Below, piece by piece: positions 29,752 through 53,688 of a stretch of DNA of 64,000 nt (position 1 is its first letter; the number at the start of each line of letters is the position of its first letter). A program made the position numbers and the translations under genes. The DNA is from Bacteroidales bacterium. GTDB taxonomy: Bacteria; Bacteroidota; Bacteroidia; Bacteroidales; Paludibacteraceae. The DNA lies in contig JAAYQF010000130.1 in the NCBI GenBank assembly GCA_012519425.1, positions 1-64,000 of the forward strand, given 5' to 3'. Under the pieces are notes generated by a model. It was not told where the DNA came from. It saw nothing but the letters and a program-made list of their open reading frames with translations, and ran no database searches.

Positions 29752-31650
29752 ATGCATCGTTTGAATATCATTAAAGTTTTATTGTGTCTACTCGTAATCA
29801 GCGTTTTTAGCTTTTTGCCTTCATGTGTTGAAGATATTCCTGAGGAATTCATGTTTACCAGTACCAAAAAAACCATGGGGCGCTATATTGAAGACGATCC
29901 TGATTTGTCGGAGTTTACCGCTATTTTGCAGAGGAGCAAAACCCTCGGTCTACTGAAAGCATATGGTTTATATACTTGTTTTGCTCCGGACAATGATGCC
30001 ATTGAAAGGTATTATGAGGCTAAGGGCAAGTCTTCCATAGATGATTTTACTGAGGAAGAGTTAAAACAAATTGCTTATGATCATATAGTGTACGGAGATA
30101 CCCTCACATCCGGTGATTTTGGCATTGGCCGATTGAATCAGATGACCATGAGCAGAGGTTTTTTGTCCATTTCCTATTCAGAAAATGATATTTTTGTCAA
30201 TGGTAGATCCAGGTTGATTGAAAAGGATATTTCAGTTCACAATGGGATGCTTCATATTATTTCCGAGATGATAGACCCTTCCCGCTATGGAATTGTTGAC
30301 CAGCTTTCCAAAGAAGAACGTTTTACTTTATTTTATGAAGCTTTGATGCTGACCGGACTGGCAGATTCACTCCAGAAAGATGTTGACGAGTCTTATAATC
30401 CTAATTTATACAGACATTTGGTAATTTATCCTCCGGAAACCAATCCTGCCTGGAGAGCTGATGAAATTCCCGAATCAAGGCGGTATGGTTATACCATATT
30501 GATGGAAAGCAATGAGACCATGGAGGCCAACGGTATTACGGATATAGAATCTCTTAAAACATATGCAGCAAGCGTGTATGATGATGTATATCCCGAGGAT
30601 GCCGGTATTACGGATGTAACCGACAGAAGGAACAGTTTAAATCGGTTTGTTGCCTATCACCTGATAGATAAGGAATTGAGTTTGAAACAATTCATTGATG
30701 CGTATGACAATGGTAATGTTGTTAAGACAGTCGATATGTATGAATATATTGAGACCATGTGTCCCAATACCCTGATAGAGGTGACTAAGGTACGCAGTAC
30801 GAACGAGACCAATCTTTTGAATTACATACCTTCAGCAGGTCGTAAAATACAGATAGTCAATAATTTTGAAAACGAAGATGCGAACAAGGCTCAAAACGGA
30901 ATATATCATGAGCTTGACCAAATGCTTGTTTATGACAGAGTTGTGTTGGAAGAACATTCCGGTAAACGTTTGCGTTTTGATATGGCCAGCTTTTTCCCGG
31001 AATTTACCAATAACGGCATCCGGGGACGGACACATCGTATTCCTTGCCACCACATATGGTTCCCACATGATTACATAGAACGCATCAAAGCGACTCCCCA
31101 AACCGTTATGGGCTACGTAGAGTCCAATAGCAGATTGGGGAATTATCAGGGTGATGAGTTGTTTATGGATGTTAAGCCCGGTAATTTGTATGAATTCACC
31201 ATCACTACTTTTCCTGTTCCTGCCGGGACTTACGAAGTTCGTTTTGGTTATTTGACTAATTACGCCAGAGGTGTTTGTCAGTTTTATTTTGATGATATTC
31301 CCACCGGAGTTCCTATTAATTTGAACAACGATGGATATCACGAAGCTATCGGATGGGTGAGACCCGGGTCGGATCCAAGTGACCCTGAGGGTTATGAAAA
31401 TGACAAAATGATGCGTAATTTGGGTTATATGAAAGCACCTGCATGTATCAAAATAAGTGATTTTGCGTGGGGTCCTAATGAGTTTCCCAGAAACGCCAGT
31501 AATGTTCTTAGAAAAATACTTGGCATTTATACTTTTGACAAAGCCGGCCACCACACCTTGTCCGTCAAGGGTTTGAGCGGTGGTCAGTTTATGATAGATT
31601 ACCTGGAGTTTGTACCGATCAGTGCCCTTGAAACTGAAGATATTTATTGA
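29752..31650 (+). CDS. FAS1-domain lipoprotein, tandem copy 1
   Basis: The 632-residue lipoprotein (FLPSC, Cys25) has FAS1 domain 1 at about 45-190 (LLKAYGLYTCFAPDNDAIE; LIEKDISVHNGMLHIISEMI), FAS1 domain 2 at about 195-400 (YGYTILMESNETMEANG; NSLNRFVAYHLIDKEL) and a beta-rich C-terminal module at about 420-632 (YEVRFGYLTNYARGVCQFYF; LSVKGLSGGQFMIDYLEF). It is over 80% identical by eye to the next gene. It is the first gene after the operator and promoter of the FAS1-SusCD operon. Anchored at the cell surface, it could take the place of SusE/F-type glycan-binding lipoproteins; this is inference from position. Confidence 0.9.
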   Translation: MHRLNIIKVLLCLLVISVFSFLPSCVEDIPEEFMFTSTKKTMGRYIEDDPDLSEFTAILQRSKTLGLLKAYGLYTCFAPDNDAIERYYEAKGKSSIDDFTEEELKQIAYDHIVYGDTLTSGDFGIGRLNQMTMSRGFLSISYSENDIFVNGRSRLIEKDISVHNGMLHIISEMIDPSRYGIVDQLSKEERFTLFYEALMLTGLADSLQKDVDESYNPNLYRHLVIYPPETNPAWRADEIPESRRYGYTILMESNETMEANGITDIESLKTYAASVYDDVYPEDAGITDVTDRRNSLNRFVAYHLIDKELSLKQFIDAYDNGNVVKTVDMYEYIETMCPNTLIEVTKVRSTNETNLLNYIPSAGRKIQIVNNFENEDANKAQNGIYHELDQMLVYDRVVLEEHSGKRLRFDMASFFPEFTNNGIRGRTHRIPCHHIWFPHDYIERIKATPQTVMGYVESNSRLGNYQGDELFMDVKPGNLYEFTITTFPVPAGTYEVRFGYLTNYARGVCQFYFDDIPTGVPINLNNDGYHEAIGWVRPGSDPSDPEGYENDKMMRNLGYMKAPACIKISDFAWGPNEFPRNASNVLRKILGIYTFDKAGHHTLSVKGLSGGQFMIDYLEFVPISALETEDIY

Positions 31651-31670
31651 TTGATTGATTGATTGATTGA
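31647..31670 (+). repeat. (TTGA)6 microsatellite
   Basis: Six TTGA units run from the last base pairs of the first FAS1 duplicate into the following gap and include its stop codon. Slippage would not change the protein because the stop lies in the first unit. Confidence 0.9.
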
Positions 31671-32054
31671 TCAGTGCACAACTTACGATACTACATATAG
31701 TAATATAGTGTGGTATAGTGTACGATATTAAATGTAGATGGGGTGATCAAAGGTGATTAAATTTGATCGTATTTGTGGGGAATGGATTGTGTTTTTTTGA
31801 TTTAAAACCAGGAAAATTGTTAATATTTAACCACCTTTTGAGGTGCAGGGAATTTCAAATTTTTAATGTAATTTTCTGATAGTTAATAATCTATATAAAT
31901 ATATTGTTGTTTTGTTGTTTTTTTTGATAAAATTTCAATGCGATTCTTATGGTTTTTATTAAGTTTTATTTATCTTTGCCTCAATTTGTTTGTAAATAAC
32001 AAATATGTGTGATATATACCATGAGAAGAATAATCCCCTAATTGTACTATTATT
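31671..32054. other. Gap between the FAS1 duplicates with internal promoter candidate
   Basis: No gene is visible. An inverted repeat GATCAAA/TTTGATC (31745-31751 and 31762-31768, 10-bp spacer) could be an operator. TATCTTTG at 31971-31978 matches the -7 consensus about 75 bp before the second duplicate, so that gene may have its own promoter. The last 30 bp before the ATG resemble the sequence before copy 1, indicating that the duplication included some leader. Confidence 0.45.
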
Positions 32055-33956
32055 ATGCATCGTTTGAATAATGCCGTTGAAATTTTATTGTGTCTGTTTA
32101 TAGCAGGCATGTTTGGTTTTTTGTCTTCATGTGTTGATGAAATTGATGAGGAGTTTAGGTTTACCAGTACCAGAAAAACCATGGGACAATACATTGAAGA
32201 CGAACCCGATCTATCGGAATTTACTGCTATTCTTGAGAAGAGTAAAACACTCGGTCTACTAAAAGCATACGGTTTATACACCTGTTTTGCTCCAAGCAAT
32301 TCAGCCATTGAAAAATATTATGAGGCTAAGGGCAAATCTTCTATAGATGATTTTACCGAGGAAGAGTTAAAACAAATTGCTTATGATCATTTGGTGTATG
32401 GGGACACCCTTACGTCCGGTGATTTTGGTATTGGACGATTGAATCAGATGACCATGAGCAGAGGCTTCTTGTCCATTTCTTATTCAGCCAACAATATTTT
32501 TGTCAACGGTAAATCCAGGTTGGTTGAAAAGGATATTTCCACTCACAACGGGATGCTTCATATTATTTCCGAGGTGATAGATCCTTCCCGCTACGGAGTG
32601 GTTGACCAGCTTTCCAAAGAGGAACGTTTTACATTGTTTTATGAAGCCTTGATATTGACCGGGCTGGCGGATTCTCTTCAGAGAGACGTCGACGAGTCTT
32701 ATAATCCTAATTTATACTCACATTTCATAATTTATCCCAGGGAGACCAATCCCAGTTGGAGATACGATGAAGTTCCCGAACAGAGGCGATATGGTTATAC
32801 CATATTGATGGAAAGTAATGAGACCATGGAAGCTAACGGGATTACAGACATAGAATCTCTCAAAACATACGCAGCCAGTGTGTATGATAATGTATATCCC
32901 GAAGATGCCGGTATTACAGATGTAACAGACAGGAGGAACAGTTTGAATCGGTTTGTCGCTTATCACCTGATAGATAAGGAATTGAGTTTGGAGGGATTCA
33001 TTGATGCGTACGACAATGGTAATGTTGTTAAGACAGTCGATATGTATGAATATATCGAGACCATGTGCCCCAACACCTTGATAGAGGTGACCAAGTTGCG
33101 TAAAACCTTGGAGACCAATCTTTTGAATTATATACCTTCAACAGGACGCAGGGTTGAGATACTTAGTAATTTCGAGGAAAATGCGAACAAGGCTCAAAAC
33201 GGAATATATCATGAGGTTGACAAAATGCTTGTTTATGATCAGGTTGTATTGGATGAACATTCCAGTAAACGTTTGCGTTTTGATATGGCCAGTTTATTCC
33301 CGGAGTTTACCAACAATAATATTCGGGGACAAAAACATACACTTCCTTGTAAACACGTTTGGTTTCCACATAATTATATAGAACGGGTTAAAGCGACTCC
33401 CCAAACTACTTTGGGATATGTAGAATCTAATGAGAGGTTGATGAACTATCAGGGTGATGAGTTGTTTATGGATGTTAAGCCCGGTAATTTATATGAATTT
33501 ACTATCACTACTTTACCCGTTCCTGCCGGAACTTACGAAGTTCGTTTTGGTTATTTGACCAATTATGGCAGAGGTGTTTGTCAGTTTTATTTTGATGGTG
33601 TTCCCACCGGTGTTCCTGTTAACTTGAACAACGATGGGGCTCATGAAGCCATTGGGTGGGTGAGACCCGGGTCGGATCTAAGTGATCTTGATGGTTTTGA
33701 AAATGACAAAATGATGCGTAATCTGGGTTACATGAAAGGGCCTGCATGCCTTCAAGCACCTGATCCTGTGTGGACAGGGGGAGCTGCCGATGGCAGGCGA
33801 GACCGTCGTCATCTCAGAAAAATAATCGGTATTTATACTTTCGACAAAGCCGGTCATCATACCCTGTCGGTTAAAGGACTGAGCGGGGGGCAGTTTATGA
33901 TAGATTATATGGAGTTTGTGCCGATCAGTGCCCTTGAGAATGAAGATATCTATTGA
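32055..33956 (+). CDS. FAS1-domain lipoprotein, tandem copy 2
   Basis: The 633-residue lipoprotein (LSSC, Cys26) has the architecture of its upstream copy: two FAS1 domains and the beta-rich C-terminal module. Differences gather in the signal peptide, in the loop at about 340-355 (LRKTLETNLLNYIPSTGRRV against VRSTNETNLLNYIPSAGRKI) and near residues 580-595, where copy 2 has DPVWTGGAADGRRDRRH and copy 1 has DFAWGPNEFPRNASN. Clustering in a few surface-type loops suggests diverging binding sites. It is followed by the multi-FAS1 gene after 56 bp. Confidence 0.9.
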   Translation: MHRLNNAVEILLCLFIAGMFGFLSSCVDEIDEEFRFTSTRKTMGQYIEDEPDLSEFTAILEKSKTLGLLKAYGLYTCFAPSNSAIEKYYEAKGKSSIDDFTEEELKQIAYDHLVYGDTLTSGDFGIGRLNQMTMSRGFLSISYSANNIFVNGKSRLVEKDISTHNGMLHIISEVIDPSRYGVVDQLSKEERFTLFYEALILTGLADSLQRDVDESYNPNLYSHFIIYPRETNPSWRYDEVPEQRRYGYTILMESNETMEANGITDIESLKTYAASVYDNVYPEDAGITDVTDRRNSLNRFVAYHLIDKELSLEGFIDAYDNGNVVKTVDMYEYIETMCPNTLIEVTKLRKTLETNLLNYIPSTGRRVEILSNFEENANKAQNGIYHEVDKMLVYDQVVLDEHSSKRLRFDMASLFPEFTNNNIRGQKHTLPCKHVWFPHNYIERVKATPQTTLGYVESNERLMNYQGDELFMDVKPGNLYEFTITTLPVPAGTYEVRFGYLTNYGRGVCQFYFDGVPTGVPVNLNNDGAHEAIGWVRPGSDLSDLDGFENDKMMRNLGYMKGPACLQAPDPVWTGGAADGRRDRRHLRKIIGIYTFDKAGHHTLSVKGLSGGQFMIDYMEFVPISALENEDIY

Positions 33957-34012
33957 TTTAAAAATATATATGCACACTTATAAATGCACGTGTAAAAATT
34001 AATTTACTACTT

Positions 34013-36577
34013 ATGAGTTACCAACGAAACAGATTTTATTTCAATCTTCACGCATTATTCATTTTAATTGTTGTGGGATTAACAATTAGTTCTTGCGAAA
34101 AAGACTATTACTACGATACCAGAGAACCGGATTTCTTGAATGGTAGTATATATGAATACCTGGAAAAAAGTGGTGATTTTAAATACTACGTTCGTCTTAT
34201 CAATGATTTAGGCTATAAAGAAGTTCTTGCTCTGACAGGTAGTAAAACCTTATTTGTCAGCAAAGATGAAGCTTTCGACAGATTCTTTCAAGACAATGAG
34301 TGGGGAGTTTCAAGTTATGAAGAGTTGTCAGTCAATCAAAAGAAGATGTTGTTTTATTTCTCTATGATCAACAATGCATACACCCTGGAGAAATTGTCGA
34401 ACTATTACGACGGACAATTCAACGAGGGATTGGCACTCAGGAGGCTGACTGCATTGTCGGCTATAGACCGACTTTCTTTTGACACTGAATTGCCTGCGGG
34501 ACCCTATTGGGATCCGTACAGGGAAAACGGACTTTATATTTTGAAGGATAATACTGATATTCCGTTTATCTTTTTCTCACAGCAGTTCATTGACAGGACA
34601 GGCATGACGGATGATGACTTTACCTTTTTGAGTGGTGGTAAAATTCGTGTAAAGGATGACTTTTATGTTTTTGATAATAAGGTTATAGAAAAGGACATCG
34701 TATGTAAAAATGGTTTTATCCAGATAATGGAAGATGTGTTGATACCGCCCGATAATATGGCTGAGTACATCACCGGTAATGAAAAGATGTCTATATTTGC
34801 CGCCTTGCTTAACCGTTTTTCGGCTCCATTTTATGATCATCAAAATACGCTGTTGTATCGTGAATTAAATCCTGAATTTACCGATTCAATTTTTAACAAA
34901 CGTTATTTCGCCGTCAATGGTGGAGTGTCTATGGATCCCGACGGAAAACCGGTTCCGCTTCTTGCTTTTAATCCAGGCTGGAATGCATATGTTACCACGT
35001 CCTCCATTTATTCCGATATGGCTGCGATGTTTGTTCCTACTGATGAAGCGATGACCTATTTTTTCAATAATGAACCTATTGGTATGTTGTTGAAAGAACG
35101 CTATGAAACCTGGGAAAATTTACCCAATGAGGTGGTAGTCTCTTTTTTGAAAAGGCATATGCGGCCTTCTTTAATTGAATCATTCCCGCATAATTTTGAC
35201 AAGATGGTGGATGATCAAAACTATCCGATGCAAGTTGTTGAAGCAGACATTGTAAAGGAAGAAAATTATACAGCGATTAACGGGCAGGTTTATGTGACTA
35301 ACAAGGTTTTTACCCCTGTAGATTTTATCTCCGTATATGGACCTGTGTTGCTTAGCGAAGATTCCAGGGTGATGAACTGGGCAATTCGAAGAACGGAAAC
35401 TGCAACGGACGGGTCACAGTTTGCGTTTTATCAACTCTATTTGAACTCTTTAGTGGTTAACTATAGCTTATTTATTCCTTCAGATGGATTTTTCAATTCT
35501 TATGTAGATCCGGTGGCATTTGGGCAAGATGGTATTCAGGGAGCTATGAAGTATTGGTATAATGAAGAAACGAAAGCGGTAAATGCTACAATTTATGAAT
35601 ATTCTAAAGCTACCCATGAAATAGGTGATTCCATCGCTGCAATCACTGATGCCGGTTTTATACAAAATCGTTTGTGGAAATTATTAGACAGTCATATCGT
35701 AGTGGGCGATATTGAAAAAGATGGATATTACATTACCAAAGCCAACGACTTCATCAAAGTGAGTGAGCAAGGAAAGGTTGTTCAAGGGGGTTATGACGGT
35801 AAAACGGGTGACAAGGTTAATATACTCAGAACTTTTGATCAGGCGAACGGTAAAACCTACCTGGTAGACGCACCTATTCAATCTTCTTTGCAGACGGTTT
35901 ACGATGTGTTGTCTGATGTTCAAAAAGACAAGTTTTCCATGTTTTTTGATTTGTTGAATGAAGCTCCGCGTGACTTTGAGCCTGAGATTCTTTCAATCTT
36001 TACTCCAAGAGGTATCAATTATTGTGTGAGTTTTTTCAATTCATTTAATTATACCATTTATGTTCCTTCCAATGACGCAATTCAGAGTGCCATTAATAGT
36101 GGGAAAATCAAGACATGGGCCACTATCAACGCTTTGCCGCTTGATGATCGTAAAAAAGAAACAGCCGAGTTGATACGCTTTTTGCGTTATCATTTCCAGG
36201 ACCGGGCTGTTTTTATTGGACAGGACAGAGACGACAATATTTATGATTCCAGTGCACGAAAAACGGCGGATGACACATTCCCTTCCAAATACGGCACCGG
36301 TGTGAATAAATACTATAAATTGGGACTGGAAGATGTGGATGGAACTATTGAACTTACAACAGAGTCAGAGGGTAAAGCTCGTGTGATCAAGGAGGACGGA
36401 TACTACAATCTGGTCGCAAAAGATTATGTTTTCAATACCAATAAAGATATATCGACGAGCTTTAAAAATGTAGATGGTACCGGGGCAGCTTCTGCTAAAG
36501 CATTTGTGACATCCAGGGTTGTCACCACCTCATCTGCTGTTATACATTTAATCGATAATGTATTGAGTTATAAATAA
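34013..36577 (+). CDS. Large multi-FAS1 lipoprotein
   Basis: The 854-residue lipoprotein (ISSC, Cys28) holds several FAS1-type domains in series: about 40-250 (LALTGSKTLFVSKDEAF; VIEKDIVCKNGFIQIMEDVL), about 255-435 (AMFVPTDEAMTYFF; YTAINGQVYVTNKVF), about 445-620 (YSLFIPSDGFFNSYV) and about 640-854 (YTIYVPSNDAIQSAI; TSSAVIHLIDNVLSYK). It lacks the beta-rich C-terminal module of the two genes before it. It starts 56 bp after copy 2 and ends 66 bp before SusC. Its size and place directly before SusC suggest a surface component of that transporter complex. Confidence 0.87.
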   Translation: MSYQRNRFYFNLHALFILIVVGLTISSCEKDYYYDTREPDFLNGSIYEYLEKSGDFKYYVRLINDLGYKEVLALTGSKTLFVSKDEAFDRFFQDNEWGVSSYEELSVNQKKMLFYFSMINNAYTLEKLSNYYDGQFNEGLALRRLTALSAIDRLSFDTELPAGPYWDPYRENGLYILKDNTDIPFIFFSQQFIDRTGMTDDDFTFLSGGKIRVKDDFYVFDNKVIEKDIVCKNGFIQIMEDVLIPPDNMAEYITGNEKMSIFAALLNRFSAPFYDHQNTLLYRELNPEFTDSIFNKRYFAVNGGVSMDPDGKPVPLLAFNPGWNAYVTTSSIYSDMAAMFVPTDEAMTYFFNNEPIGMLLKERYETWENLPNEVVVSFLKRHMRPSLIESFPHNFDKMVDDQNYPMQVVEADIVKEENYTAINGQVYVTNKVFTPVDFISVYGPVLLSEDSRVMNWAIRRTETATDGSQFAFYQLYLNSLVVNYSLFIPSDGFFNSYVDPVAFGQDGIQGAMKYWYNEETKAVNATIYEYSKATHEIGDSIAAITDAGFIQNRLWKLLDSHIVVGDIEKDGYYITKANDFIKVSEQGKVVQGGYDGKTGDKVNILRTFDQANGKTYLVDAPIQSSLQTVYDVLSDVQKDKFSMFFDLLNEAPRDFEPEILSIFTPRGINYCVSFFNSFNYTIYVPSNDAIQSAINSGKIKTWATINALPLDDRKKETAELIRFLRYHFQDRAVFIGQDRDDNIYDSSARKTADDTFPSKYGTGVNKYYKLGLEDVDGTIELTTESEGKARVIKEDGYYNLVAKDYVFNTNKDISTSFKNVDGTGAASAKAFVTSRVVTTSSAVIHLIDNVLSYK

Positions 36578-36643: not shown

Positions 36644-39600
36644 ATGAGATATTTTTCAGTATTAACCATAGTCCTTTGTGCCATAATTCTTTCTCCGTAT
36701 TATGGGTATTCTCAAGCAAGCAGAGAAGCTGTTATTATTCAGGGTACCGTGACTTCTAAAGCCGATGGGGAGCCTTTGATCGGTGTAAGTGTTGCAGAAT
36801 TAGATGCATCTAATCGTGTTGTAGCCGGTACTGTAACCAATTTCAACGGACAGTATCTGTTGCGTGTTTCTAATGCCAATGGTCGTCTTATGTTTTCATA
36901 TATGGGGTTCCAAAGAGTAGTGCTCAATGCCGGAAACAGAACAAGGATTGATCTTCAAATGGTTGAAGAATCAACTTCGATAGCTGAAGTTACGGTTACC
37001 GGTACCAGAAAGACAACCAGTCAGGGAGGTTTTTCCATACCCGAACGGGAAGTGAGTACCGCCATGCAGTCAATTAGTACCAAAGAGTTCGAGGGATTGC
37101 AGGTCACTTCTATTGATGATGCTCTGCAAGGACATATTGCCGGGTTGGATATTGTAGCTAACTCCTCCGACCCCGGAGCGCCAACCTCCATGCGTATTCG
37201 TGGGGTTAACACCATTAACAGTAATGCAGAGCCCTTGATTGTGCTTAACGGGGTACCTTATTCGTTGGATGTGGATCCTAATTTTGACTACGCCAACTCG
37301 AATACGGAGCAATATGCTAATATGTTAAGTATCAACCCGGATGATATTGAGCAGATTGAAGTATTAAAAGATGCGGCTGCATCAGCCGTATGGGGAACCA
37401 AAGGTGCCAATGGTGTAATTATGATCACTACCAAAAAAGGGGTAGCCGGACCAACCCGGGTCACCTATTCTTATCGATTTACCCGAACCAAGCAACCCCA
37501 GGGCAAAAAGATACTTACCGGAGACGACTACACCATGTTTATCAAGGAGGCCTATCTGAACCCTCGTCAGGATGATGAAGCCAATGATTTGCCCGAATAC
37601 AATTATGACAGAAACTTTCCGGATTTCGAAAATTATAACAATAACACCGATTGGATCAAAGAAGTATCTCAGATAGGATATATCCACAACCATAACCTCA
37701 CGGTTTACGGTGGTGGCGATCGTGCTAAATACAGATTGTCGGGAGAGTACCTTACACAACGTGGGACCATTATTGGACAAAACTTAGAACGCTACTCCTC
37801 CCGATTGGCTTTGGAGTACAATGTGTCGGATCGCATTCAGTTTGTTTCAGAAACAGCTTTCACCTTCACAAATAACCGTAGAAGTTACGATAATTATTTA
37901 GGGATTGCTTACAATAAAATGCCGAATGTGAGTGTCTATATGCAAGATAGGGATGGGAATGATACAGAGGAGTTTTTTAATATACCCAGAACTTCTCAAC
38001 TCAACGACAGTCAGAAAAACTTGAGGAACCCGATAGCATTGTCAGAATTAGCGACCAATCGTTCAAGGTCTACACGTATCCTTCCACAGGTTGGAATACG
38101 TTACCACCTGTTGGATCCCGTAGTTCATTTGTTGAGGCTGAATATTGATGCTACTTTTGATGTAAACAATGATAAATCCAATGTTTTCTTACCCGCTAAC
38201 GCCACGAATTTAAGGTGGATGGATAGAGTTAATGAGGCATCGGATGCTTCCTCACAGAATTTGGGTGTTTTCTCGGACGCTAACTTGCTATTTGTTCCAA
38301 ATTTTGAAAACAAAGATCACTCTTTGTCGCTTTACGCTTCTATGCAAATTTCAACCGGTAACAGTTCAAGCCAGCAAATTGTCACTTCAGGCTTACCGGC
38401 GTATGATCTGATTGATGCATCTAATCTTGGATACATCGAGTCAGCACGCAACGGCAGATCTTCCTACAGGGGACTTGGATTTATGACAAGATGGCATTAT
38501 GCGTACAAAGGGCGCTATATCACTTCGGGTACATTGCGTCAGGATGGAAGTACAAGATTTGGAAAAGGTAACCGTTGGGCAACTTCCCCGGGCCTTTCGT
38601 TAAAGTGGATCATGTCTGATGAACCATTTTTAGATAGTGCCGATTGGTTGAGCATGTTGGCATTTCGCGGATCATGGGGTATCAGTGGTAATCAACCCGG
38701 GTCTGATTATCTGCACTATAGCCGATACGGAATATATGGAAGTTACATGAATCTTCCTGCTGTTAAACCTAATTCATTGCGATTAGATGCACTTAAATGG
38801 GAAACAGCAACTGCCTACAACCTGGGGGCTGAGTTTGCTGTGATAGATTACAAGTACAGCGCTGATTTCAACTATTACAAGACTCGGATCGATGACATGT
38901 TGTTTTCAGGCTTTGCATTATCAAGTAGTTCGGGATTCCCCTCTTTGCCCTATGTCAACGCCGGAATCATGGAGAATGAAGGATGGGAACTTTATCTTAA
39001 CTTCAATAGATTCGTGGAGGTAAAGGATTTTTCAATGGACTTTAAAATAAATTTTGCGAATAACAGGAATACCATCATTGAAATAGATCCTACAATATTA
39101 AAAAGCTGGAATGCCGAGTTTAATTATACAAACGGAACTTATTTAACACGTATTCAAGAGCGTAATTCGTTCGGATCAATCTACGGTTTCAGGTACAAAG
39201 GAACCTATAAATACGACAAGTTTGAAAATGCCATCGAAAAAGAAGGAAGCATCTTAGGAGCGGACGGTGTTCCTTTGGCACCATTTGCTTTGGACGCGGA
39301 GGGAAATGTGATTTATGACCACAATGGGAAACCAAAACCCATGTATTTTTCATACAATCATTTGCCGACACGTTACCAGTTCCGCGGGGGTGATGCTATT
39401 TACGAAGACATAAATAATGATGGTACCATTGATGAACTTGATATAGTATATTTGGGGAACTCCAATCCTAAAATACACGGTGGATTTGGTCTGGACTTCA
39501 GATACAAGAGATTTATGCTACGTAATTTCTTTAATTTCAGATATGGAAATAAAGTTGTTAACAGCGCCAGAATGCATGCTGAAAACATGTACACTGACAA

Positions 39601-39964
39601 TAATCAGAGTATAGCTGTAAACTGGAGGTGGAGACACGAAGGAGATGTGACTGATATGCCCAGAGCACTTTATCAATATGGATATAACTGGTTGGGTAGT
39701 GACAGATATGTTGAAGATGGGTCGTTCTTGCGCTTTAAGTATATGCAACTTAATTATGATTTCCCAAAGTCAATGTTGCAACCTTATCATCTGGAAAGAT
39801 TATCATTCTATATGACCATTAATAACCTTTTCCTTCTGACGAAGTACTCCGGTGTTGACCCGGAGGTAGGTTATGGTGGCTTGGGCGGAGGAGGAATTAG
39901 TTACGACAATAACAGAACTCCACGAACGAGAGACTTTGTATTTGGGGTGACAATAGGGTTCTAG
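36644..39964 (+). CDS. SusC/RagA-family TonB-linked outer-membrane transporter
   Basis: The 1106-residue transporter has a signal peptide (LTIVLCAIILSPYYGYSQ), a carboxypeptidase-D-like domain (about 30-115, IQGTVTSKADGEPLIGVSV), a TonB-box-like segment (SIAEVTVTGTRK), a plug (about 140-265, PLIVLNGVPY and KDAAASAVWGTKGANGV) and a 22-strand-type barrel ending TRDFVFGVTIGF. It follows the multi-FAS1 gene and precedes SusD, so it should import oligosaccharides with the SusD at 40016-41599. The substrate is unknown; no endo-acting enzyme is encoded between 29.7 and 48.3 kb. Confidence 0.96.
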   Translation: MRYFSVLTIVLCAIILSPYYGYSQASREAVIIQGTVTSKADGEPLIGVSVAELDASNRVVAGTVTNFNGQYLLRVSNANGRLMFSYMGFQRVVLNAGNRTRIDLQMVEESTSIAEVTVTGTRKTTSQGGFSIPEREVSTAMQSISTKEFEGLQVTSIDDALQGHIAGLDIVANSSDPGAPTSMRIRGVNTINSNAEPLIVLNGVPYSLDVDPNFDYANSNTEQYANMLSINPDDIEQIEVLKDAAASAVWGTKGANGVIMITTKKGVAGPTRVTYSYRFTRTKQPQGKKILTGDDYTMFIKEAYLNPRQDDEANDLPEYNYDRNFPDFENYNNNTDWIKEVSQIGYIHNHNLTVYGGGDRAKYRLSGEYLTQRGTIIGQNLERYSSRLALEYNVSDRIQFVSETAFTFTNNRRSYDNYLGIAYNKMPNVSVYMQDRDGNDTEEFFNIPRTSQLNDSQKNLRNPIALSELATNRSRSTRILPQVGIRYHLLDPVVHLLRLNIDATFDVNNDKSNVFLPANATNLRWMDRVNEASDASSQNLGVFSDANLLFVPNFENKDHSLSLYASMQISTGNSSSQQIVTSGLPAYDLIDASNLGYIESARNGRSSYRGLGFMTRWHYAYKGRYITSGTLRQDGSTRFGKGNRWATSPGLSLKWIMSDEPFLDSADWLSMLAFRGSWGISGNQPGSDYLHYSRYGIYGSYMNLPAVKPNSLRLDALKWETATAYNLGAEFAVIDYKYSADFNYYKTRIDDMLFSGFALSSSSGFPSLPYVNAGIMENEGWELYLNFNRFVEVKDFSMDFKINFANNRNTIIEIDPTILKSWNAEFNYTNGTYLTRIQERNSFGSIYGFRYKGTYKYDKFENAIEKEGSILGADGVPLAPFALDAEGNVIYDHNGKPKPMYFSYNHLPTRYQFRGGDAIYEDINNDGTIDELDIVYLGNSNPKIHGGFGLDFRYKRFMLRNFFNFRYGNKVVNSARMHAENMYTDNNQSIAVNWRWRHEGDVTDMPRALYQYGYNWLGSDRYVEDGSFLRFKYMQLNYDFPKSMLQPYHLERLSFYMTINNLFLLTKYSGVDPEVGYGGLGGGGISYDNNRTPRTRDFVFGVTIGF

Positions 39965-40015: not shown

Positions 40016-41599
40016 ATGAAAGTATTTAGAATAGTATTATTTGTTATAGTGGTGTCAGTTTTGACAACCGGATGTGATAGTTGGTTGGAACTGAAACCCG
40101 AAAATGAAATAGTGTTGGAAGACTTTTGGAAATCCAAAGCTGATGTAGAGTCTGTTTTGGCCGGATGCTATAAAAGTTTGAGTGAGAGGCCTGTTATCGA
40201 GAGGATGATTGTTTGGGGTGAGCTTCGCTCCGACAATATGGTTGAGGGCAGGACTATCCCGGCAGGTTCCGGCTTGTATGACATGCGCAGGATATTGGAT
40301 GGTAACCTCACCAGACATAACAGCTATGCCAATTGGGGACCACTCTACACCACCATCAACTATTGTAATACACTGCTGTCTTATGCACCTGAAGTAAGAG
40401 AAGTGGATGCCAACTTTTCTCAAAGGGACTTAAATTTGGTCATAGGAGAAGCTACAACTTTGCGTGCATTGGCTTATTTCTATTTGGTCAGAGCGTTCAG
40501 AGATATTCCGTTAATTCTTGATCCCAGTATCAATGATACGCAAGACTATGACAGACCCCAAGATGACGAGGAAACTGTTTTGAACTTTATTATTGACGAT
40601 TTGAATGATATTCTTAACAAAGGATGGGTGAGAGACAGTTATGGGGACAGAGCCAGTGATAAAGGACGCATAACGCGAAGCGCAGTGAACGCGTTGTTGG
40701 CCGATGTTTACCTGTGGAAAGAAGATTATGAAAATTGTATCAAAGCTTGTGACAGAGTTTTGGCGGATAATAACCTGAGACTCGTTACGGATATTGAGCA
40801 GTTTTATGCCCAGGTGTTTTACAGAGGAAATTCGACAGAGTCTATTTTTGAAATACAATTCAATGAAAGAGATGTAAGAAACACGGCCATTGTCGATTTG
40901 TATTCCAGTCTGGACAACAGTAGAGGTTATTTGGCATTCCCTACATCCCTGGGATGTGACTATGCTACGAACTATAGTACTCAATACAGTCCTTTTAATG
41001 CCAGAGTACCCGGTTCAGTTGAGTTAGAGGCAACCTCTGATGTTCGCTCATGGTCATTCATACGTTATGAAGGTGGAGATGCTTTTTCAATTTTCAAATA
41101 TGGAGGTGCCAATGTGTATCAGAGAGATTTGATCTCAGCCAAAACTTATTCATATCGTAATACCACTGCCAATTGGATAGTTTACAGATTAGCTGATGTT
41201 ATGCTGATGAAGGCCGAGGCAATGGTTCAGGCTGATAAAGATTGGGATGAAGCTTTCAAATTAGTTAATGACATATATTTACGTGCGAGTGAAACAAAAG
41301 AGCCGCTTGTAGCTGATAATTACTCTAATAAAGTTGACAGGGAAGAATTGGTGTTAAGAGAACGTCAAAGAGAATTGATGTTTGAAGGAAAACGTTGGTT
41401 TGATTTGGTGCGCCTGGCCAGAAGAGGAGGTTCCGTGGATAGGCTGAACAGATATGTGACTCTTAAACGCTCGGATTCTCCGGCACCTTTGGGGGCTTTG
41501 GTAATGGATGCACTTTACATGCCTATTGCGAAAAGCGAATTGGATGCCAATGAAAATTTCAAACAAAACCCCTATTATGACACTTTGAGAGATAAATAA
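40016..41599 (+). CDS. SusD/RagB-family lipoprotein (pair 1 of FAS1 operon)
   Basis: The 527-residue lipoprotein (LTTGC, Cys20) starts DSWLELKPENEIVLEDFWKS and has the SusD helical core (VIGEATTLRALAYFYLVRAF) and C-terminal signature (LVLRERQRELMFEGKRWFDLVRLAR). It is the surface lid for the SusC just upstream (51 bp). It is followed after 49 bp by another FAS1 lipoprotein, in the position where SusE-like proteins are usually found. Confidence 0.96.
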   Translation: MKVFRIVLFVIVVSVLTTGCDSWLELKPENEIVLEDFWKSKADVESVLAGCYKSLSERPVIERMIVWGELRSDNMVEGRTIPAGSGLYDMRRILDGNLTRHNSYANWGPLYTTINYCNTLLSYAPEVREVDANFSQRDLNLVIGEATTLRALAYFYLVRAFRDIPLILDPSINDTQDYDRPQDDEETVLNFIIDDLNDILNKGWVRDSYGDRASDKGRITRSAVNALLADVYLWKEDYENCIKACDRVLADNNLRLVTDIEQFYAQVFYRGNSTESIFEIQFNERDVRNTAIVDLYSSLDNSRGYLAFPTSLGCDYATNYSTQYSPFNARVPGSVELEATSDVRSWSFIRYEGGDAFSIFKYGGANVYQRDLISAKTYSYRNTTANWIVYRLADVMLMKAEAMVQADKDWDEAFKLVNDIYLRASETKEPLVADNYSNKVDREELVLRERQRELMFEGKRWFDLVRLARRGGSVDRLNRYVTLKRSDSPAPLGALVMDALYMPIAKSELDANENFKQNPYYDTLRDK

Positions 41600-41648: not shown

Positions 41649-43232
41649 ATGACAATAACAAACAAAATTTTGAAAATTAAATTATATGCTCTTGTCGGCA
41701 TAGCTATGCTGTTTTCTTTCCAGGCTTGTAAGGATGCTTTCAACGAACACTACAGTCTGGATACAGAGATGAGAAGCGACCTCAACTTGATCGAATACAT
41801 GCAGTCAAGAAGCGATTTGGGTAAATTTGTAGAATTACTTGAATTTACCGGATATAAGGATACTTTAACGCACTCACAGGCATATACTGTTTTTGCGCTT
41901 ACTAATGATGCGTTGAGTGATATAGAAATAAATGAGTCTGTTGCAGATAGTTTGCGATTGCTTGTTGCTAATCATATCACCGGAGGTACACACGTATTTC
42001 CGGCCATCATTAAAGCATTTAACGGTAAGTATATTGAACAACAAAAGGAACAGGGTGCATTCTATTATGGAAATCAAAAGATTGTTGAGCCTAATTTGCT
42101 GACTAAAAACGGAGTAGTTCATGTTTTGAATACTCGTGTACCTTACGTCATGAATATATGGGAGTTTATCCAAAATCAGCCGTCTTTAGATTCATTGCGT
42201 AATTATTTAAACTCAATTTCTAAATTGGAGTTCTCTCCGGCGCTCAGTTATGATGAGAATAGTGTGTTCATTGATTCTGTGTTTGTAGAAAGTAATAGGT
42301 TCTTAAATGAGCTAGGTGCGATTAACAATGAGCTGTTCTTGTCATCAGTTATTTTACCTTCAAACGCCGCATGGAATGAGTTATATGGCAAAATTTTCCC
42401 GTATTATCGTTCTCTTGATAAATTGGACGAGGATTCGACTCTGATAACCGGTGAGGAGCAACAGGCATCATTAACCAAGTGGTCAATGGTTAAAGATTGT
42501 GTTTTTGGCGGTTTGTTAGAAGACCCTGCTACCAAAGACTCCCTCCGTTCAACTTCCGGAAGTGTCTTTAAAAATCCGGCTTACCTATTCACATCGTCTG
42601 AGAAATATACGTTGAGTAATGGTCATGCTTACGTGACTAATCAGATGAAGAATAAATTGACTGATTCATGGCTCAAACCCATCATAGTTGAAGCAGAAAG
42701 TGATATTTATCAGAAAGTTACTGTGGCTAACTGTAAGTTGGTAACATATTCCACATTCGGATCACAGTTTACAGCTTCCAGGAATTATTTTGTTCGTTAT
42801 GAACAATTACCCGGTAACGACTTCTCGAAAGTATCTGTTCGCTTTCCGATACCCAATACATTGGCCAATGTTAAATACAACATATACTGTGTATTTATTC
42901 CGTCAAATGCTATCAATCCGGACGATACACGACCTTATCGCGCAAACTTTTACTTATCATATGTAGATGAAGAAGGGAATATAATAACGGATAAAGCATT
43001 GCCGGTAGAAAGTAATGATACAAATCCGGATGAAATAACTAAGTTGTTGATAGCGGAAAATTATCAATTCCCATATTGCAATCTGATTTCAGGACCGGCT
43101 TCTGAGGTAGGTAAAGATATTAACGTGTACTTAAAAGTCGAAAATGCTGCCAGAACAAGAGATGAAAGAAACGGTACGTATAGTCGTAGCATTGCGATTG
43201 ACTATATCATCTTAGAACCCGTAATGGATTGA
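41649..43232 (+). CDS. FAS1-domain lipoprotein between two SusCD pairs
   Basis: The 527-residue lipoprotein (FQAC, Cys27) has a clear FAS1 domain at about 45-175 (LEFTGYKDTLTHSQAYTVFALTNDAL; NLLTKNGVVHVLNTRVPYVM), a second partial FAS1 at about 180-340 and a C-terminal beta-rich domain at about 350-527 (VEAESDIYQKVTVANCKL and PNTLANVKYNIYCVFIPSN), which resembles the C-terminal modules of its neighbours only in general type. It lies between SusD (49 bp) and the second SusC (41 bp), so it is part of the same operon and probably forms a surface complex with one of the two transporters. Confidence 0.86.
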   Translation: MTITNKILKIKLYALVGIAMLFSFQACKDAFNEHYSLDTEMRSDLNLIEYMQSRSDLGKFVELLEFTGYKDTLTHSQAYTVFALTNDALSDIEINESVADSLRLLVANHITGGTHVFPAIIKAFNGKYIEQQKEQGAFYYGNQKIVEPNLLTKNGVVHVLNTRVPYVMNIWEFIQNQPSLDSLRNYLNSISKLEFSPALSYDENSVFIDSVFVESNRFLNELGAINNELFLSSVILPSNAAWNELYGKIFPYYRSLDKLDEDSTLITGEEQQASLTKWSMVKDCVFGGLLEDPATKDSLRSTSGSVFKNPAYLFTSSEKYTLSNGHAYVTNQMKNKLTDSWLKPIIVEAESDIYQKVTVANCKLVTYSTFGSQFTASRNYFVRYEQLPGNDFSKVSVRFPIPNTLANVKYNIYCVFIPSNAINPDDTRPYRANFYLSYVDEEGNIITDKALPVESNDTNPDEITKLLIAENYQFPYCNLISGPASEVGKDINVYLKVENAARTRDERNGTYSRSIAIDYIILEPVMD

Positions 43233-43273
43233 AATTGGTAGAATTAATTATAAATACTACAAATTAATATAAA

Positions 43274-46200
43274 ATGAAAAGAGACCTCATTATATTTATA
43301 AAGCTCATGCAAAAGATGTTATTTCTATTGGGACTGTTTTTAATTGTGCTTCCTGTTCAGGTCAGGGCTGAGGAGGCGCCGAAAGTCGAAATTAAAGGGA
43401 TAGTCAGAGATGCCCGCACCAAAGCTCCTGTTAATGCTGCCCAAGTTATCTTGACTAACAAAGCTTCCGTCATTACCGGTGAAGATGGAACATTTACTGT
43501 TGACATAGGAGGTACAGATGGTGTTTTGCATGTTGAGGCTTTTGAATATGAAAGACAGGAAATTGCAGTTTTTTCAGCGGATCAATTCGTTGAGGTTAAT
43601 CTTTATCCCAAGGGATTCTATAACTATTTCAAGCCGATCAGGTTGCCACATGCTACCGTAGATAATTCGGCGTTAACCATTTCTGCAAAAAGCACTGAAA
43701 ACTTTAGTCAAAATACTGATGTTACAGCGGATACAAAAATTCAAACTTCCTTTGGGTCTGATTTGCGCTCTGTGAGCAGGTCCGGTCTTATCGGAAGTGG
43801 TAATAATCTATTCATACGAGGTATTAATTCTCTGTATATGAGTACCCAACCTCTTGTAGTAGTGGATGGTGTTATCTGGAACAGCTACCAGGATTTGGAA
43901 TCTATTCATGCCGGTTTGTTTATCAATCCCCTGGACGACATAGATGTTAATGATATTGAAGATATTACCATTATGAAAGATGGTACGTCTATCTATGGTG
44001 CAAAGGGAGCAAATGGTGTTGTGTTGATAACGACCAAACGCTCAAAATCCATGGTGACCAAAATTGGATTAAACGTTTTTTATGGAATTTTAGATCGTCC
44101 GGCGCAAATTCCTTTGTTGTCTTCGGAAGAATATAGGATTTATGCGAGTGATATGTTGACTTCTTATAAGGTTGCGACCGGGGAAGATGTTAGTGCCGAC
44201 TTTTTGGCTAATCCCAACAATCCGATTTATAATGCTTATTTCAACAACACCAATTGGTCTGACTTAGTGTATCAAACCGGAAATGTTGGTAATTATGTTG
44301 TGAATGTTGACGGTGGTGACGACAGAGCAATGTACTATTTTTCCATTGGTCTTACCAATTCAGACGGAGCTGTGAAAACAACAGACTACCAGCGTTTGAA
44401 TGCACGCTTCAATGTAGATGCTAACTTTACTAAATTCTTAAAAACCAAAGCTGAGGTTTCATTTACGAATAATATTAGAACTCTTCTTGACGATGGAGTG
44501 GATAGATTTTCGTCTCCAACCTGGCAGGCACAGATTAAGTCTCCTTTCCTTTCGCCTTATCTCTTTAGCTCCACCGGAGTTGAGACCAAGCAATTGGCCT
44601 ATGCCGATGAATTTGGTATTGCGAATCCTGTCGGAGTAGTTAATTATTCACAGAATAAACAGAAGAAGCAGCATTTTAATATTGGTATCACGCCGGAGCT
44701 GACGATATTACCGGTTTTAAAATTCACAACTCAGTTTAATTATAGTTTGCAGAAGATAGACGAAGCTTATTTTCTTCCTATGAACTATACACCTGAGAGA
44801 ATAATGCCGCTTCAGGGTATTTCCAAAAACAATCTGAAGAGTCAGGTTGCAAACAATAATTCTATATACAGTGACAGCAGGTTGATCTACAATCAATCTT
44901 TTAATAATCACAATCTTAATGCTGTTGCCGGATTTAGATATAGCTACAATAGCTATGAAGTTGACTTTATCGATGAACACAACTCCGGTTCAAACTCGAA
45001 TACGATGATCACGGGGGCATATGAATTCCTCACAGTTGACGGCTTTGATGTTGAATCAAAATATATTTCAAATTATCTGGGTGTAGATTATGATTTCCAG
45101 AAAAAGTACTTGGTTTCTGCAGCTTTTGCGATGGATGCATCTTCTCGTTTTGGCAAACAAGCACGGTCCGGCATCTCATTGTTTGGAGCATCCTGGGGTC
45201 TTTTCCCATCTATCAACGGTGCCTGGGTCTTCAGTTCAGAAGAGTTTATGCGTCCGGTTTCTATGATTAATTATGGTAAACTTCGTTTAGGCTACGGTAT
45301 AACCGGTAATGATGCTATCCCCGACTACGAGGCACAAACCTATTTGACATCTACGCGTTTTACCAACCGGGCTAATGGTTTGAGATTGGCTCACTTTGAA
45401 AATGAGGAGATCCAGTGGGAGCAAACCAGGAGAGCCAATGCAGGCCTGGATCTTGAAATGTTCAGAAATATAGTGAACATCTCTTTGGATGTTTATACGG
45501 GAACTACTGATAATCTGCTCACTTTGATAAAATATCCTGAAGTGTTGGGAAGTGGTTACTATTGGTATAACAATGGTTCCATGATTAACCAAGGATTTGA
45601 AGCCTCGCTTAATCTGAAAATGTTGAATCTGAAAAACTTTATTTGGAATCTTGGACTTAGTGCAGGACATTACAATAATAAGATCACTTCTTTGCAAAAT
45701 CCCGAGGGATATTTTGTGACCCCTGTGTTTGGTTCGGAAGTAATCACACAAAAGGGTCAACCTCTTGGTTTGTTCTACGGATATAAGTCGAAAGGGGTAA
45801 TTAGTACACAAGACGAAGCAGATGCATTGGGTTTGAAGCAGATTGCCAAATCCGGTGGATATGATTATTTCATGGCAGGAGATGTACAGTTTGATGATGT
45901 TAACAAAGACGGTATTATAGATGAAAGAGACAAACAGGTTATTGGAAACCCACATCCGAAACTTTATGGAGCAATTAATAGCAATATGAAATTACATCGT
46001 TTCGATTTAAGTTTGCTCTTCACCTATTCTTACGGTAATGATGTGTATAACTACCACCGTCGCATGTTGGAAACCGGAAGTGATTTTAGTAATCAGTCTA
46101 AAGCCAGACTAAACAGGTGGACAGCGGATGGACAGCAAACTTCTCAACCTCAAGCCATTTATGGAGATCCTATGGGCAACGGAAGATTTTCTGACAGATG

Positions 46201-46444
46201 GATTGAAGATGGTTCTTATCTGAAGCTGAAGAATGTCAAGTTGTCGTATGTGTTTGCATATAAAAATGATTATATCAGAGGAATTAATATTTGGGCTTCT
46301 GTGAATGATGTTTATACCCTGACTAATTATCTGGGTAGGGATCCGGAATTCAGTATCAGTAGTTCACCATTTTATCAGGGTATTGATGCCGGTTTTATGC
46401 CTAATATGAGAGCTTATTATCTTGGTTTACGTATAGACTTTTAA
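43274..46444 (+). CDS. SusC/RagA-family TonB-linked transporter (pair 2)
   Basis: The 1056-residue transporter could start at MKRDLIIFIKLMQKML or at the internal MQKML, both ahead of the signal core LFLLGLFLIVLPVQVRA. A carboxypeptidase-D-like domain (VEIKGIVRDARTKAPVNAAQ), plug (PLVVVDGVIW; MKDGTSIYGAKGANGVVLIT) and barrel ending YYLGLRIDF follow. Compared with the first SusC it has a longer, unusual stretch between the N-terminal domain and plug (GFYNYFKPIRLPHATVD). I could not see a standard VVVGYG-type TonB box, so its mode of coupling is less certain. It pairs with the SusD at 46569-48341. Confidence 0.93.
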   Translation: MKRDLIIFIKLMQKMLFLLGLFLIVLPVQVRAEEAPKVEIKGIVRDARTKAPVNAAQVILTNKASVITGEDGTFTVDIGGTDGVLHVEAFEYERQEIAVFSADQFVEVNLYPKGFYNYFKPIRLPHATVDNSALTISAKSTENFSQNTDVTADTKIQTSFGSDLRSVSRSGLIGSGNNLFIRGINSLYMSTQPLVVVDGVIWNSYQDLESIHAGLFINPLDDIDVNDIEDITIMKDGTSIYGAKGANGVVLITTKRSKSMVTKIGLNVFYGILDRPAQIPLLSSEEYRIYASDMLTSYKVATGEDVSADFLANPNNPIYNAYFNNTNWSDLVYQTGNVGNYVVNVDGGDDRAMYYFSIGLTNSDGAVKTTDYQRLNARFNVDANFTKFLKTKAEVSFTNNIRTLLDDGVDRFSSPTWQAQIKSPFLSPYLFSSTGVETKQLAYADEFGIANPVGVVNYSQNKQKKQHFNIGITPELTILPVLKFTTQFNYSLQKIDEAYFLPMNYTPERIMPLQGISKNNLKSQVANNNSIYSDSRLIYNQSFNNHNLNAVAGFRYSYNSYEVDFIDEHNSGSNSNTMITGAYEFLTVDGFDVESKYISNYLGVDYDFQKKYLVSAAFAMDASSRFGKQARSGISLFGASWGLFPSINGAWVFSSEEFMRPVSMINYGKLRLGYGITGNDAIPDYEAQTYLTSTRFTNRANGLRLAHFENEEIQWEQTRRANAGLDLEMFRNIVNISLDVYTGTTDNLLTLIKYPEVLGSGYYWYNNGSMINQGFEASLNLKMLNLKNFIWNLGLSAGHYNNKITSLQNPEGYFVTPVFGSEVITQKGQPLGLFYGYKSKGVISTQDEADALGLKQIAKSGGYDYFMAGDVQFDDVNKDGIIDERDKQVIGNPHPKLYGAINSNMKLHRFDLSLLFTYSYGNDVYNYHRRMLETGSDFSNQSKARLNRWTADGQQTSQPQAIYGDPMGNGRFSDRWIEDGSYLKLKNVKLSYVFAYKNDYIRGINIWASVNDVYTLTNYLGRDPEFSISSSPFYQGIDAGFMPNMRAYYLGLRIDF

Positions 46445-46568
46445 TGCTATTAAAATGAATTTAAAATTAGATTCGATGAAACAGCCATTTGAGAAAATTC
46501 TCAAACACAAGGAAATGATTAATGGCGTGTTCCATGTGACCTTAGTATAAAAAATAAAAAATAAACAC

Positions 46569-48341
46569 ATGAAAAGAGTAATTAATAAAATACTTTTATG
46601 GAGTTTTTCCCTGGTTGTTTTAGTTGGATGTGAAAACATGCTCCAGGTAGACTCAGATCAAATGGTTAGGGTTGATCAGCACGATATGAGTTCTGACAGT
46701 TTGTATTCCCTGTTTGGGATTTTAGCCGAACTTCAGAAGATTGCCGACAGCTATGTTATCATGGGGGAGTTGCGTGGTGACTTGTTGGAGATTGATGAAA
46801 ATGCAGATATGTATTTGAAAGAAATCTATAATTTTGACAATTATTCCGTTGATAATCCATATGTCGGAAAGAGAAGTGATTATTACACCATCATCAATAA
46901 TTGTAATTATATGATTAACAATATTGATACTGCGAAGGTAATAAAAGCTGAAAAACCCTTTTTAAAAGCAGGTGCAGCAGCAACAGCCATAAAAGCATGG
47001 GCTTATATGCAATTGGTGTTGAATTATGGTGATGCCATTTATTTTGATAAACCCGTTTTGAGCATCAAAGAGTCTGAAAATATACCTGCACCCATTCAAA
47101 TGGGAGAATTATTTCCAATATTAATCAATGAATTACTTCCGTATAAGGATGTAGAACCTTACAGAGTTGGAACGTTTGGTGGTTTTCAGAGATCAGAACT
47201 GCTATTTTTCTCAGTGCCGGTTATCTTGGGTGATTTGTATCTGTGGCTTGGAGAAAATGAAAATGCTGCTAATGTCTATAGAGACCTGATTTATAGAAAT
47301 AGTTATACAATTACTGATACTTATGTTAATCGTCGGGAAGTAGTTGGTACAGGTGAAACTATGGAATTTACAGACCATATAACTTCGAATTGGCAAATGA
47401 TATTCATGAGTAAAGCTTCTCCTGAATTTATTACCACTTTAGCAGTTTCTAACGAATATGAATACTTAAGTCGTTTGGATAGCTTATTTGTAAATTATCA
47501 GCTGGGCACTGATGAAGGATACTTAGTTACATCAGCGAGCATAAATACACCTTTGAGACCAACACAGGTGGCTATCAACTATTTCGACAGCACTTTGTAT
47601 TTCCACAATTATACAGACAACAAAGGTACTACTTACTTGACTGAGTACGGAGACCTCCGGGCCAATGGTACTTTTGGTAATGTTATGATGTCATCGTCTT
47701 TCAGTAGTGATTTAGACTTGGATGACTATATTTATGTTTCCAAATATATCACCATAAATCGGGGAGGAAATATTGATTTTGGATACTCTAATATACAAGA
47801 GCAAGCCAGAGAGGCTAATGTTATTGTACCTTATCGTATTCCTACTATATATTTGAGATATGCCGAGGCAGTTAACCGACTAGGGAAACCCAATTTAGCC
47901 ATGGCTGTTCTAAAACATGGCTTGAAAAATCAAACCTTGATAAACAGACAAATTTTGAAGGAATCAGATGTTCCTGATCCATTGCCTAATTACATGGATT
48001 TCAAGGATGTACGCTTTAATGAAAATGTGGGAATTCATACTCGTGGTGCCGGTTATACTGAAAGAGATACCACCTTCTATGTTATAAAAATAGATAAGCC
48101 CGAGCCTACACTAATGGATTCAATTTTATTTGTTGAAGATTTAATCCAAAAAGAAGCTGTATTGGAATTATCCTATGAAGGCAATAGATACCATGACTTG
48201 ATGCGGTTTGCCATGTTTAGGGATGACAACAGCTACCTGGCTGATAAAGTGGCGGCCAAATTCACCGACTCTGCGCTTAGGGAAAGTGTTAGAACGAAAC
48301 TAAACGACAGAAGTAATTGGTACGTAAAATTTGCGGATTAA
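46569..48341 (+). CDS. SusD/RagB-family lipoprotein (pair 2), diverged
   Basis: The 590-residue lipoprotein (VLVGC, Cys21) is recognisable as SusD by ENMLQVDSDQMVRVDQHDM at the start, the helical stretch AAATAIKAWAYMQLVLNYGDA, YLRYAEAVNRLGKPNLAMAVL and the end signature AVLELSYEGNRYHDLMRFA. It is more diverged than the other two SusD proteins here. It is the last gene of the FAS1-SusCD operon, 124 bp after its SusC, and is followed by a strong terminator. Confidence 0.9.
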   Translation: MKRVINKILLWSFSLVVLVGCENMLQVDSDQMVRVDQHDMSSDSLYSLFGILAELQKIADSYVIMGELRGDLLEIDENADMYLKEIYNFDNYSVDNPYVGKRSDYYTIINNCNYMINNIDTAKVIKAEKPFLKAGAAATAIKAWAYMQLVLNYGDAIYFDKPVLSIKESENIPAPIQMGELFPILINELLPYKDVEPYRVGTFGGFQRSELLFFSVPVILGDLYLWLGENENAANVYRDLIYRNSYTITDTYVNRREVVGTGETMEFTDHITSNWQMIFMSKASPEFITTLAVSNEYEYLSRLDSLFVNYQLGTDEGYLVTSASINTPLRPTQVAINYFDSTLYFHNYTDNKGTTYLTEYGDLRANGTFGNVMMSSSFSSDLDLDDYIYVSKYITINRGGNIDFGYSNIQEQAREANVIVPYRIPTIYLRYAEAVNRLGKPNLAMAVLKHGLKNQTLINRQILKESDVPDPLPNYMDFKDVRFNENVGIHTRGAGYTERDTTFYVIKIDKPEPTLMDSILFVEDLIQKEAVLELSYEGNRYHDLMRFAMFRDDNSYLADKVAAKFTDSALRESVRTKLNDRSNWYVKFAD

Positions 48342-53685: not shown

Positions 53686-53688
53686 GCT

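Follow-up and report, generated by a model that had tools for sequence, protein, structure and literature searches.

The stretch of DNA considered here, called the window below, comprises 64,000 nucleotides (positions 1 to 64,000 of contig JAAYQF010000130.1, assembly GCA_012519425.1) of a Bacteroidales bacterium of the Paludibacteraceae, and the system in question is a run of genes at 29752–48341 in which lipoproteins with FAS1 (fasciclin) domains are combined with two pairs of SusC and SusD genes. SusCD systems are the main route by which Bacteroidota take up complex carbohydrates, and the catalogue of the surface binders that go with them is poor, since their sequences have little in common. 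All eight genes of the run are intact reading frames, as judged by translation and by Pfam and NCBIfam scores (cut-offs of 22 bits for PF02469 Fasciclin, 368 bits for TIGR04056 and 23.1 bits for PF07980). They are given here with the two genes that precede them:

25113–26999, minus strand: third FAS_A homologue, a FAS1 lipoprotein of 628 aa (PF02469, 75.3 bits; grouped with FAS_A by the profile scan)
27201–29447, plus strand: GH105-type (Glyco_hydro_88) unsaturated uronyl hydrolase (PF07470, 284 bits)
29752–31650, plus strand: FAS_A1 lipoprotein (PF02469, 70.3 bits)
32055–33956, plus strand: FAS_A2 lipoprotein, tandem duplicate of A1 (PF02469, 74.7 bits)
34013–36577, plus strand: FAS_M lipoprotein, 854 aa, first gene of the cassette (PF02469, 51.7 bits)
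36644–39964, plus strand: SusC1, TonB-dependent transporter of clade C1 (TIGR04056, 712 bits)
40016–41599, plus strand: SusD1 lipoprotein (PF07980, 90.5 bits)
41649–43232, plus strand: FAS_B lipoprotein (PF02469, 45.2 bits)
43274–46444, plus strand: SusC2, of clade C2, sister to C1 (TIGR04056, 596 bits)
46569–48341, plus strand: SusD2 lipoprotein, last gene of the cassette (PF07980, 35.1 bits)

Both SusCs thus score above the cut-off and each has a SusD directly downstream (gaps of 51 and 124 bp), and the FAS1 proteins score above the PF02469 gathering threshold, with a FAS1 fold in the structural models of A1 and M. Every FAS1 protein and both SusDs carry an N-terminal signal peptide with a lipobox cysteine, which is invariant in the alignments of A1 (C25), M (C28) and B (C27). 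A preliminary description of this DNA had reported A1, A2, M and B as four FAS1 lipoproteins next to the two SusC/SusD pairs, and the scores confirm all of these; what it overlooked is the fifth FAS1 gene at 25113–26999, which is divergent from the GH105 gene, encodes the lipobox NAC/DSDD and shares 47% identity with A1, whereas A1 and A2 are 83.6% identical at the DNA level. The GH105 protein does carry, as had been proposed, a surface-anchoring tail, namely a type A sorting tail of the type IX secretion system (T9SS; TIGR04183, 33 bits against a cut-off of 23), in addition to an F5/8C domain (PF00754, 63 bits), and its true start is perhaps the internal methionine at 27270.

The genes from A2 to SusD2 are separated by gaps of only 56, 66, 51, 49, 41 and 124 bp in the order A2-M-C1-D1-B-C2-D2, which makes a single operon of these seven genes plausible. 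The wider operon that had been suggested, with A1 included, fits less well: A1 is 404 bp away from A2, and 304 bp lie between the GH105 gene and A1, so that each of these two genes may be transcribed from its own promoter. Scans for promoters and terminators gave counts near the shuffle expectation and were not counted as evidence.

Loci were mapped with seven profile models in fetched relatives, in 80 loci of named genomes (Paludibacter, Marinilabiliaceae, Prolixibacteraceae, Dysgonomonas, Natronoflexus, Alkalitalea, Geofilum, Maribellus and herbivore-gut Bacteroidaceae) and in eight loci from a survey with the FAS_M profile, and this gave 62 complete cassettes of seven genes, of which 58 have the identical order M-SusC1-SusD1-FAS_A-FAS_B-SusC2-SusD2 with median gaps of 13–30 bp. 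Since it recurs in 62 complete loci, the gene set of the window is more than a chance assembly, and the earlier idea that FAS1 proteins are built into a double SusCD system as a fixed unit is borne out. The four exceptions in order are the three cassettes of the window's own genome and one with a second A gene. FAS1 was found in 27 of 60 related genomes, and Paludibacter-like bacteria have up to about six copies per genome, counted as FAS1 clusters. The eight loci outside the order Bacteroidales (other families of the same class, from the phylum-wide draw) were all complete and in the same order. A phylum-wide draw of 395 genomes gave nine with a match to the FAS_M profile, and a draw of 393 from the order gave 43; these figures are rough because only two candidates were scored per genome, and the weaker matches include FAS1 proteins that belong to no cassette. 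One Bacteroidota cassette came from a record titled Clostridium sp. (L117), which is probably a misnamed bin.

Within the window's own genome (an assembly of 2.39 Mb, 95% complete), nine FAS1 matches all fall within three clusters, each a copy of the cassette: the window, contig C130 with the order A-M-C1-D1-B-C2-D2, and contig C13 with M-C1-D1-B-C2-D2, from which FAS_A has been lost. The three copies are well diverged, with identities of 31–47% among the FAS1 proteins and 37–55% among SusC1 and SusD1. Around the C130 copy lie genes for uronate/arabinose enzymes (GH127, GH43, GH88-like, heparinase-II/III-like, alginate-lyase-like, GH28-like and GH39), and on C13 a T9SS-tailed Glyco_hydro_cc (GH128-like) gene lies immediately upstream of M. 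The window copy is a rearranged variant, with FAS_A upstream of M and duplicated; of its three FAS_A genes none occupies the usual slot between SusD1 and FAS_B.

That the cassette has been passed on and copied as a whole, its parts hardly ever being exchanged, follows from the trees together with the concerted divergence of its proteins. In a tree of 27 SusC1, 27 SusC2 and 11 other SusCs of the window's genome, each of the two clades was monophyletic (support of 99 and 100) and the two were sisters, and both results held in a FastTree analysis that included 41 other SusCs of four genomes (100 and 100). Across 61 cassettes the seven proteins show correlated pairwise distances (0.92–0.97), and the correlation persists between paralogous cassettes of one genome (r of 0.93–0.98 over 26 pairs), where none of 2000 within-genome label shuffles matched the observed SusC1–SusC2 value. 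The exception to inheritance as a unit is FAS_A, which is mobile, as seen in the window, on C130 and C13, and in stand-alone copies. These last lie near glycosidase genes in gut Bacteroidaceae and, in L059, beside a T9SS-tailed secreted protein. Eight loci of herbivore-gut Bacteroidaceae (L109, L113, L115, L118 and L121–L124) hold such homologues without SusCD, several of them next to genes that, read by eye, look like GH51, GH43, GH31 or GH95.

The architecture of the FAS1 proteins was followed with AlphaFold2 models and profile comparisons. FAS_A1, modelled from 66 sequences with a pLDDT of 90, is predicted to consist of two FAS1 domains (about 36–178 and about 180–396) and a CBM35/CBM84-like jelly roll at 402–626, CBM standing for carbohydrate-binding module. 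The best match of the jelly roll is a module of a Paenibacillus xanthan lyase (6f2p; Z 11.3, root-mean-square deviation (rmsd) 2.8, 136 residues aligned), followed by the xanthan-binding module MiXBM (7ehg; Z 11.0, rmsd 2.4, 128 aligned) and by CBM35 (4qb1; Z 8.3, rmsd 3.3, 125 aligned). Cry toxins among the weak structural matches were set aside as unrelated jelly-roll proteins, the fold being a common one. FAS_M (pLDDT 89.5) has about four FAS1 domains and aligns over its full length with the four-FAS1 proteins TGFBIp and periostin at Z 17–18, the match to 7asg (Z 18.1, 511 residues aligned) having an rmsd of 13.5, presumably because the domain angles differ. FAS_B has a clear N-terminal FAS1 domain, which matches the FAS_A N-terminus by profile, a probable second one and a beta-rich C-terminal region. 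Among the FAS1 proteins, a Pfam search with E values up to 0.1 returned only Fasciclin and sub-threshold noise, without any match to SusE or SusF. The position that had been ascribed to them, that of SusE/F-type binders, is nevertheless the one that FAS_A and FAS_B hold, directly downstream of SusD, though they are not SusE/F homologues; for FAS_A this position and the lipobox are observed, the CBM-like fold is predicted and a SusE/F-type binding role is putative. The CBM-like domain of FAS_A is the better candidate for glycan binding, with FAS1 as a putative spacer or protein-docking scaffold, and the proposal that FAS1 arrays themselves bind the glycan did not gain support.

The enzymes in the neighbourhood bear on the substrate. 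As in a polysaccharide utilisation locus (PUL), the SusCD pairs have carbohydrate-active enzymes nearby: GH105 at the window, and GH128-like, GH43, GH127, GH39 and GH28-like enzymes at the C13 and C130 copies. The statement that no endo-acting enzyme is present is true of the window copy, but sibling cassettes carry GH128-like enzymes or pectinases. The commonest domains among 68 cassette neighbours were T9SS tails (30), Glyco_hydro_cc (15), H_lectin (13) and laminin-G-like domains (10). A recurrent neighbour directly upstream of FAS_M is a T9SS-tailed protein of about 900 aa that combines GH128-like and H-type-lectin parts, seen at 17252–20000 on the minus strand of locus L012 and in its relatives. 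When genes within 25 kb of a cassette were counted in 16 genomes and compared with simulated expectations, GH88/105 was enriched about threefold (16 observed, 5.2 expected, P 6e-5) and GH128-like sevenfold (7 against 1.0, P 2.5e-5), and the GH3 control was not enriched (1 against 4.6). Distant copies of the cassette adjoin genes for rhamnose uptake and catabolism (RhaT, aldolase-dehydrogenase, isomerase and kinase), as well as GH106, GH88, GH95, GH28, GH115 and rhamnogalacturonate lyase, with pectate-lyase-like or pectin-acetylesterase-like genes alongside. A uronate-rich, pectin-type substrate is likely because of these rhamnose-catabolic genes and pectinases. To judge by the neighbourhoods, the cassette family as a whole likely acts on rhamnogalacturonan-like polymers of this kind, with paralogues specialised on different ones; for the window copy itself, where GH105 is the one local pointer, a substrate of the pectin or uronate type has about an even chance. 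The glycoconjugate put forward in the preliminary description is not supported by these neighbourhoods, which point to uronic-acid-rich polysaccharides.

The region is thus probably a variant of an ancient outer-membrane import cassette whose seven genes are inherited together and whose likely substrate is of the pectin type. The cassette probably works as a two-pump machine that captures complex polysaccharides of plant type and imports them, and that it is an import cassette with FAS1 surface binders can be said with slightly firmer confidence. Its gene set, order and tight spacing, the single SusC duplication and the concerted divergence are read directly from the sequences. In the proposed mechanism, FAS_M, FAS_A and FAS_B would be surface lipoproteins in the role of SusE/F-type glycan binders; FAS_A would capture the polymer by its CBM-like C-terminal domain, while the paired FAS1 domains, together with the stalk of four FAS1 domains in FAS_M, would space and dock proteins beside the two SusCD pumps. 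These two dedicated pumps would then import oligosaccharides freed by secreted enzymes, presumably the T9SS-tailed GH105 at the window and GH128-like enzymes or pectinases at the sibling copies.

Several observations weigh against this reading. The enrichment of GH28, the pectin marker, was non-significant (9 against 5.2 expected, P 0.075); the test treats genes as independent though enzymes clump, the GH88 family was picked after the window had been seen, and the near-cassette counts were taken by hand from listings. The window copy adjoins GH105 only, with no lyase nearby to make the GH105 substrate, and for the Paludibacter-type copies the GH128-like enzymes point elsewhere. The likeness of the FAS_A fold to CBMs is no proof of sugar binding, and hhalign detected no similarity between the C-terminal regions of FAS_B and FAS_A.

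The alternative that deserves most attention concerns the substrate. GH128-like enzymes are best known as beta-1,3-glucanases, and the Paludibacter-type cassettes, including that of the window, might act on a beta-1,3-linked glycan (a glucan or an arabinogalactan backbone) by way of the T9SS GH128-like/H-type-lectin protein, whose gene immediately precedes M in many relatives as well as on C13, in keeping with the sevenfold enrichment and with the Glyco_hydro_cc and H_lectin counts among the neighbours. The window copy, however, lacks a GH128-like gene and has a GH105, and C130 and the distant copies have enzymes of the pectin type, so this is considered rather unlikely, at about one chance in four. 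FAS1 domains are known adhesion modules, and a chiefly adhesive role towards plant or particle surfaces or sister cells, with importers that take whatever is present, would agree with the likeness of FAS_M to periostin and TGFBIp; it is judged improbable, as FAS_A and FAS_B take the place of surface binders in the gene order and diverge in step with the transporters, and FAS_A has its CBM-like domain, and adhesion and glycan capture are in any case not mutually exclusive.

Two further explanations are given much less weight. Two independent PULs might lie side by side by chance, with the FAS1 genes as unrelated adhesins and the SusCD pairs not cooperating; indeed FAS_A moves, duplicates, is lost on C13 and stands alone, so that one FAS1 gene, if not more, is not tied to the cassette. 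The phylum-wide fixed order, the single origins of SusC1 and of SusC2 and the within-genome concerted divergence make this very improbable, and among the complete loci there was no half-cassette with one SusCD pair, though the searches began from FAS_A and FAS_M. SusCD-like systems can also import peptides, as RagAB does, and the copies L161, L162 and L166 have no adjoining enzymes, which would suit a peptide or glycoprotein ligand. A non-carbohydrate ligand is nonetheless most improbable, given that GH88/105 and GH128-like enzymes are enriched and GH3 is not, that rhamnose operons stand beside distant copies, and that SusC1 and SusC2 both have the SusC of the dextran utilisome (8aa4) as their nearest solved relative, RagA being a weaker match.

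The xylan system XusABCDE is a lead for comparison, as one of the tandem-pair systems with two consecutive SusCD pairs and an extra, non-FAS1 surface lipoprotein. The FAS1-containing import cassette is best seen as a variant within the SusCD kind and not as a separate kind. As with SusE/SusF-type binders, there are lipoproteins encoded directly behind SusD, and FAS_A is predicted to be a spacer-plus-CBM-like modular binder of the sort found among Sus-type surface glycan-binding proteins; the spacers, however, are FAS1 and not Ig-like, and there is no Pfam match to SusE/SusF. Periostin, TGFBIp and bacterial FAS1 adhesion proteins share the FAS1 fold and, in the four-domain array, resemble FAS_M, whereas the FAS1 proteins of the cassette are predicted surface lipoproteins of bacteria, their genes fixed within a transporter operon. 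PDB entry 9sje, which shares the SusC of 8aa4, is a close relative of SusD1. In the levan and dextran utilisomes of Bacteroides thetaiotaomicron, a SusC2D2 assembly is combined with a surface binder and a hydrolase (PMC7618045). The cassette resembles them in joining SusC and SusD with surface lipoproteins, but they have a SusC homodimer, one non-FAS1 binder and a surface glycoside hydrolase in the complex, whereas the cassette encodes two SusCD pairs that have diverged from each other and three FAS1 lipoproteins, but contains no enzyme. Tentatively, and with somewhat less than even odds, the diverged SusC1D1 and SusC2D2 may form a hetero-dimeric utilisome in place of the SusC2D2 homodimer, held by FAS_M, FAS_A and FAS_B. 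The obligate pairing and concerted divergence seen in the sequences fit such a hetero-dimer, but the same pattern would be expected if the two pumps served two products of a single polymer. If the hetero-dimer is real, one FAS1-scaffolded machine would import two different parts of the same polymer.

The rest of the window holds other systems. A group at 18628–25107 on the plus strand (glycosyltransferase, DUF4922, SpoIID-like amidase enhancer, AmpG-like permease and BadF-type kinase) resembles a peptidoglycan-fragment recycling cluster. At 4101–15341 on the minus strand, an ordinary separate SusCD pair (7440–12785) lies between two weakly matching GH76/GH127-like proteins, one of them T9SS-tailed. 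Downstream of the cassette, also on the minus strand, 50961–55871 and 56351–63966 encode large secreted proteins, T9SS-tailed or repeat-like, without a Pfam function.

A description of the cassette was not found in the open-access literature on FAS1 or fasciclin with SusC, SusD, PUL or TonB, a search that left most subscription journals outside its scope; the only relevant mentions there were a legend entry in a figure of Gramella PULs and a FAS1 protein with high transcript levels in a mussel symbiont. The original observation on the window is thus confirmed and extended, and its interpretation partly supported. Genes that are annotated piecemeal, as “fasciclin domain protein” and “SusC/SusD”, become recognisable as one system, and the obligately linked, diverged SusC pairs raise the question of why both pumps stay together. 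FAS1 proteins appear as fixed surface components of a seven-gene unit in several families of the phylum, which gives them a testable role in glycan capture.

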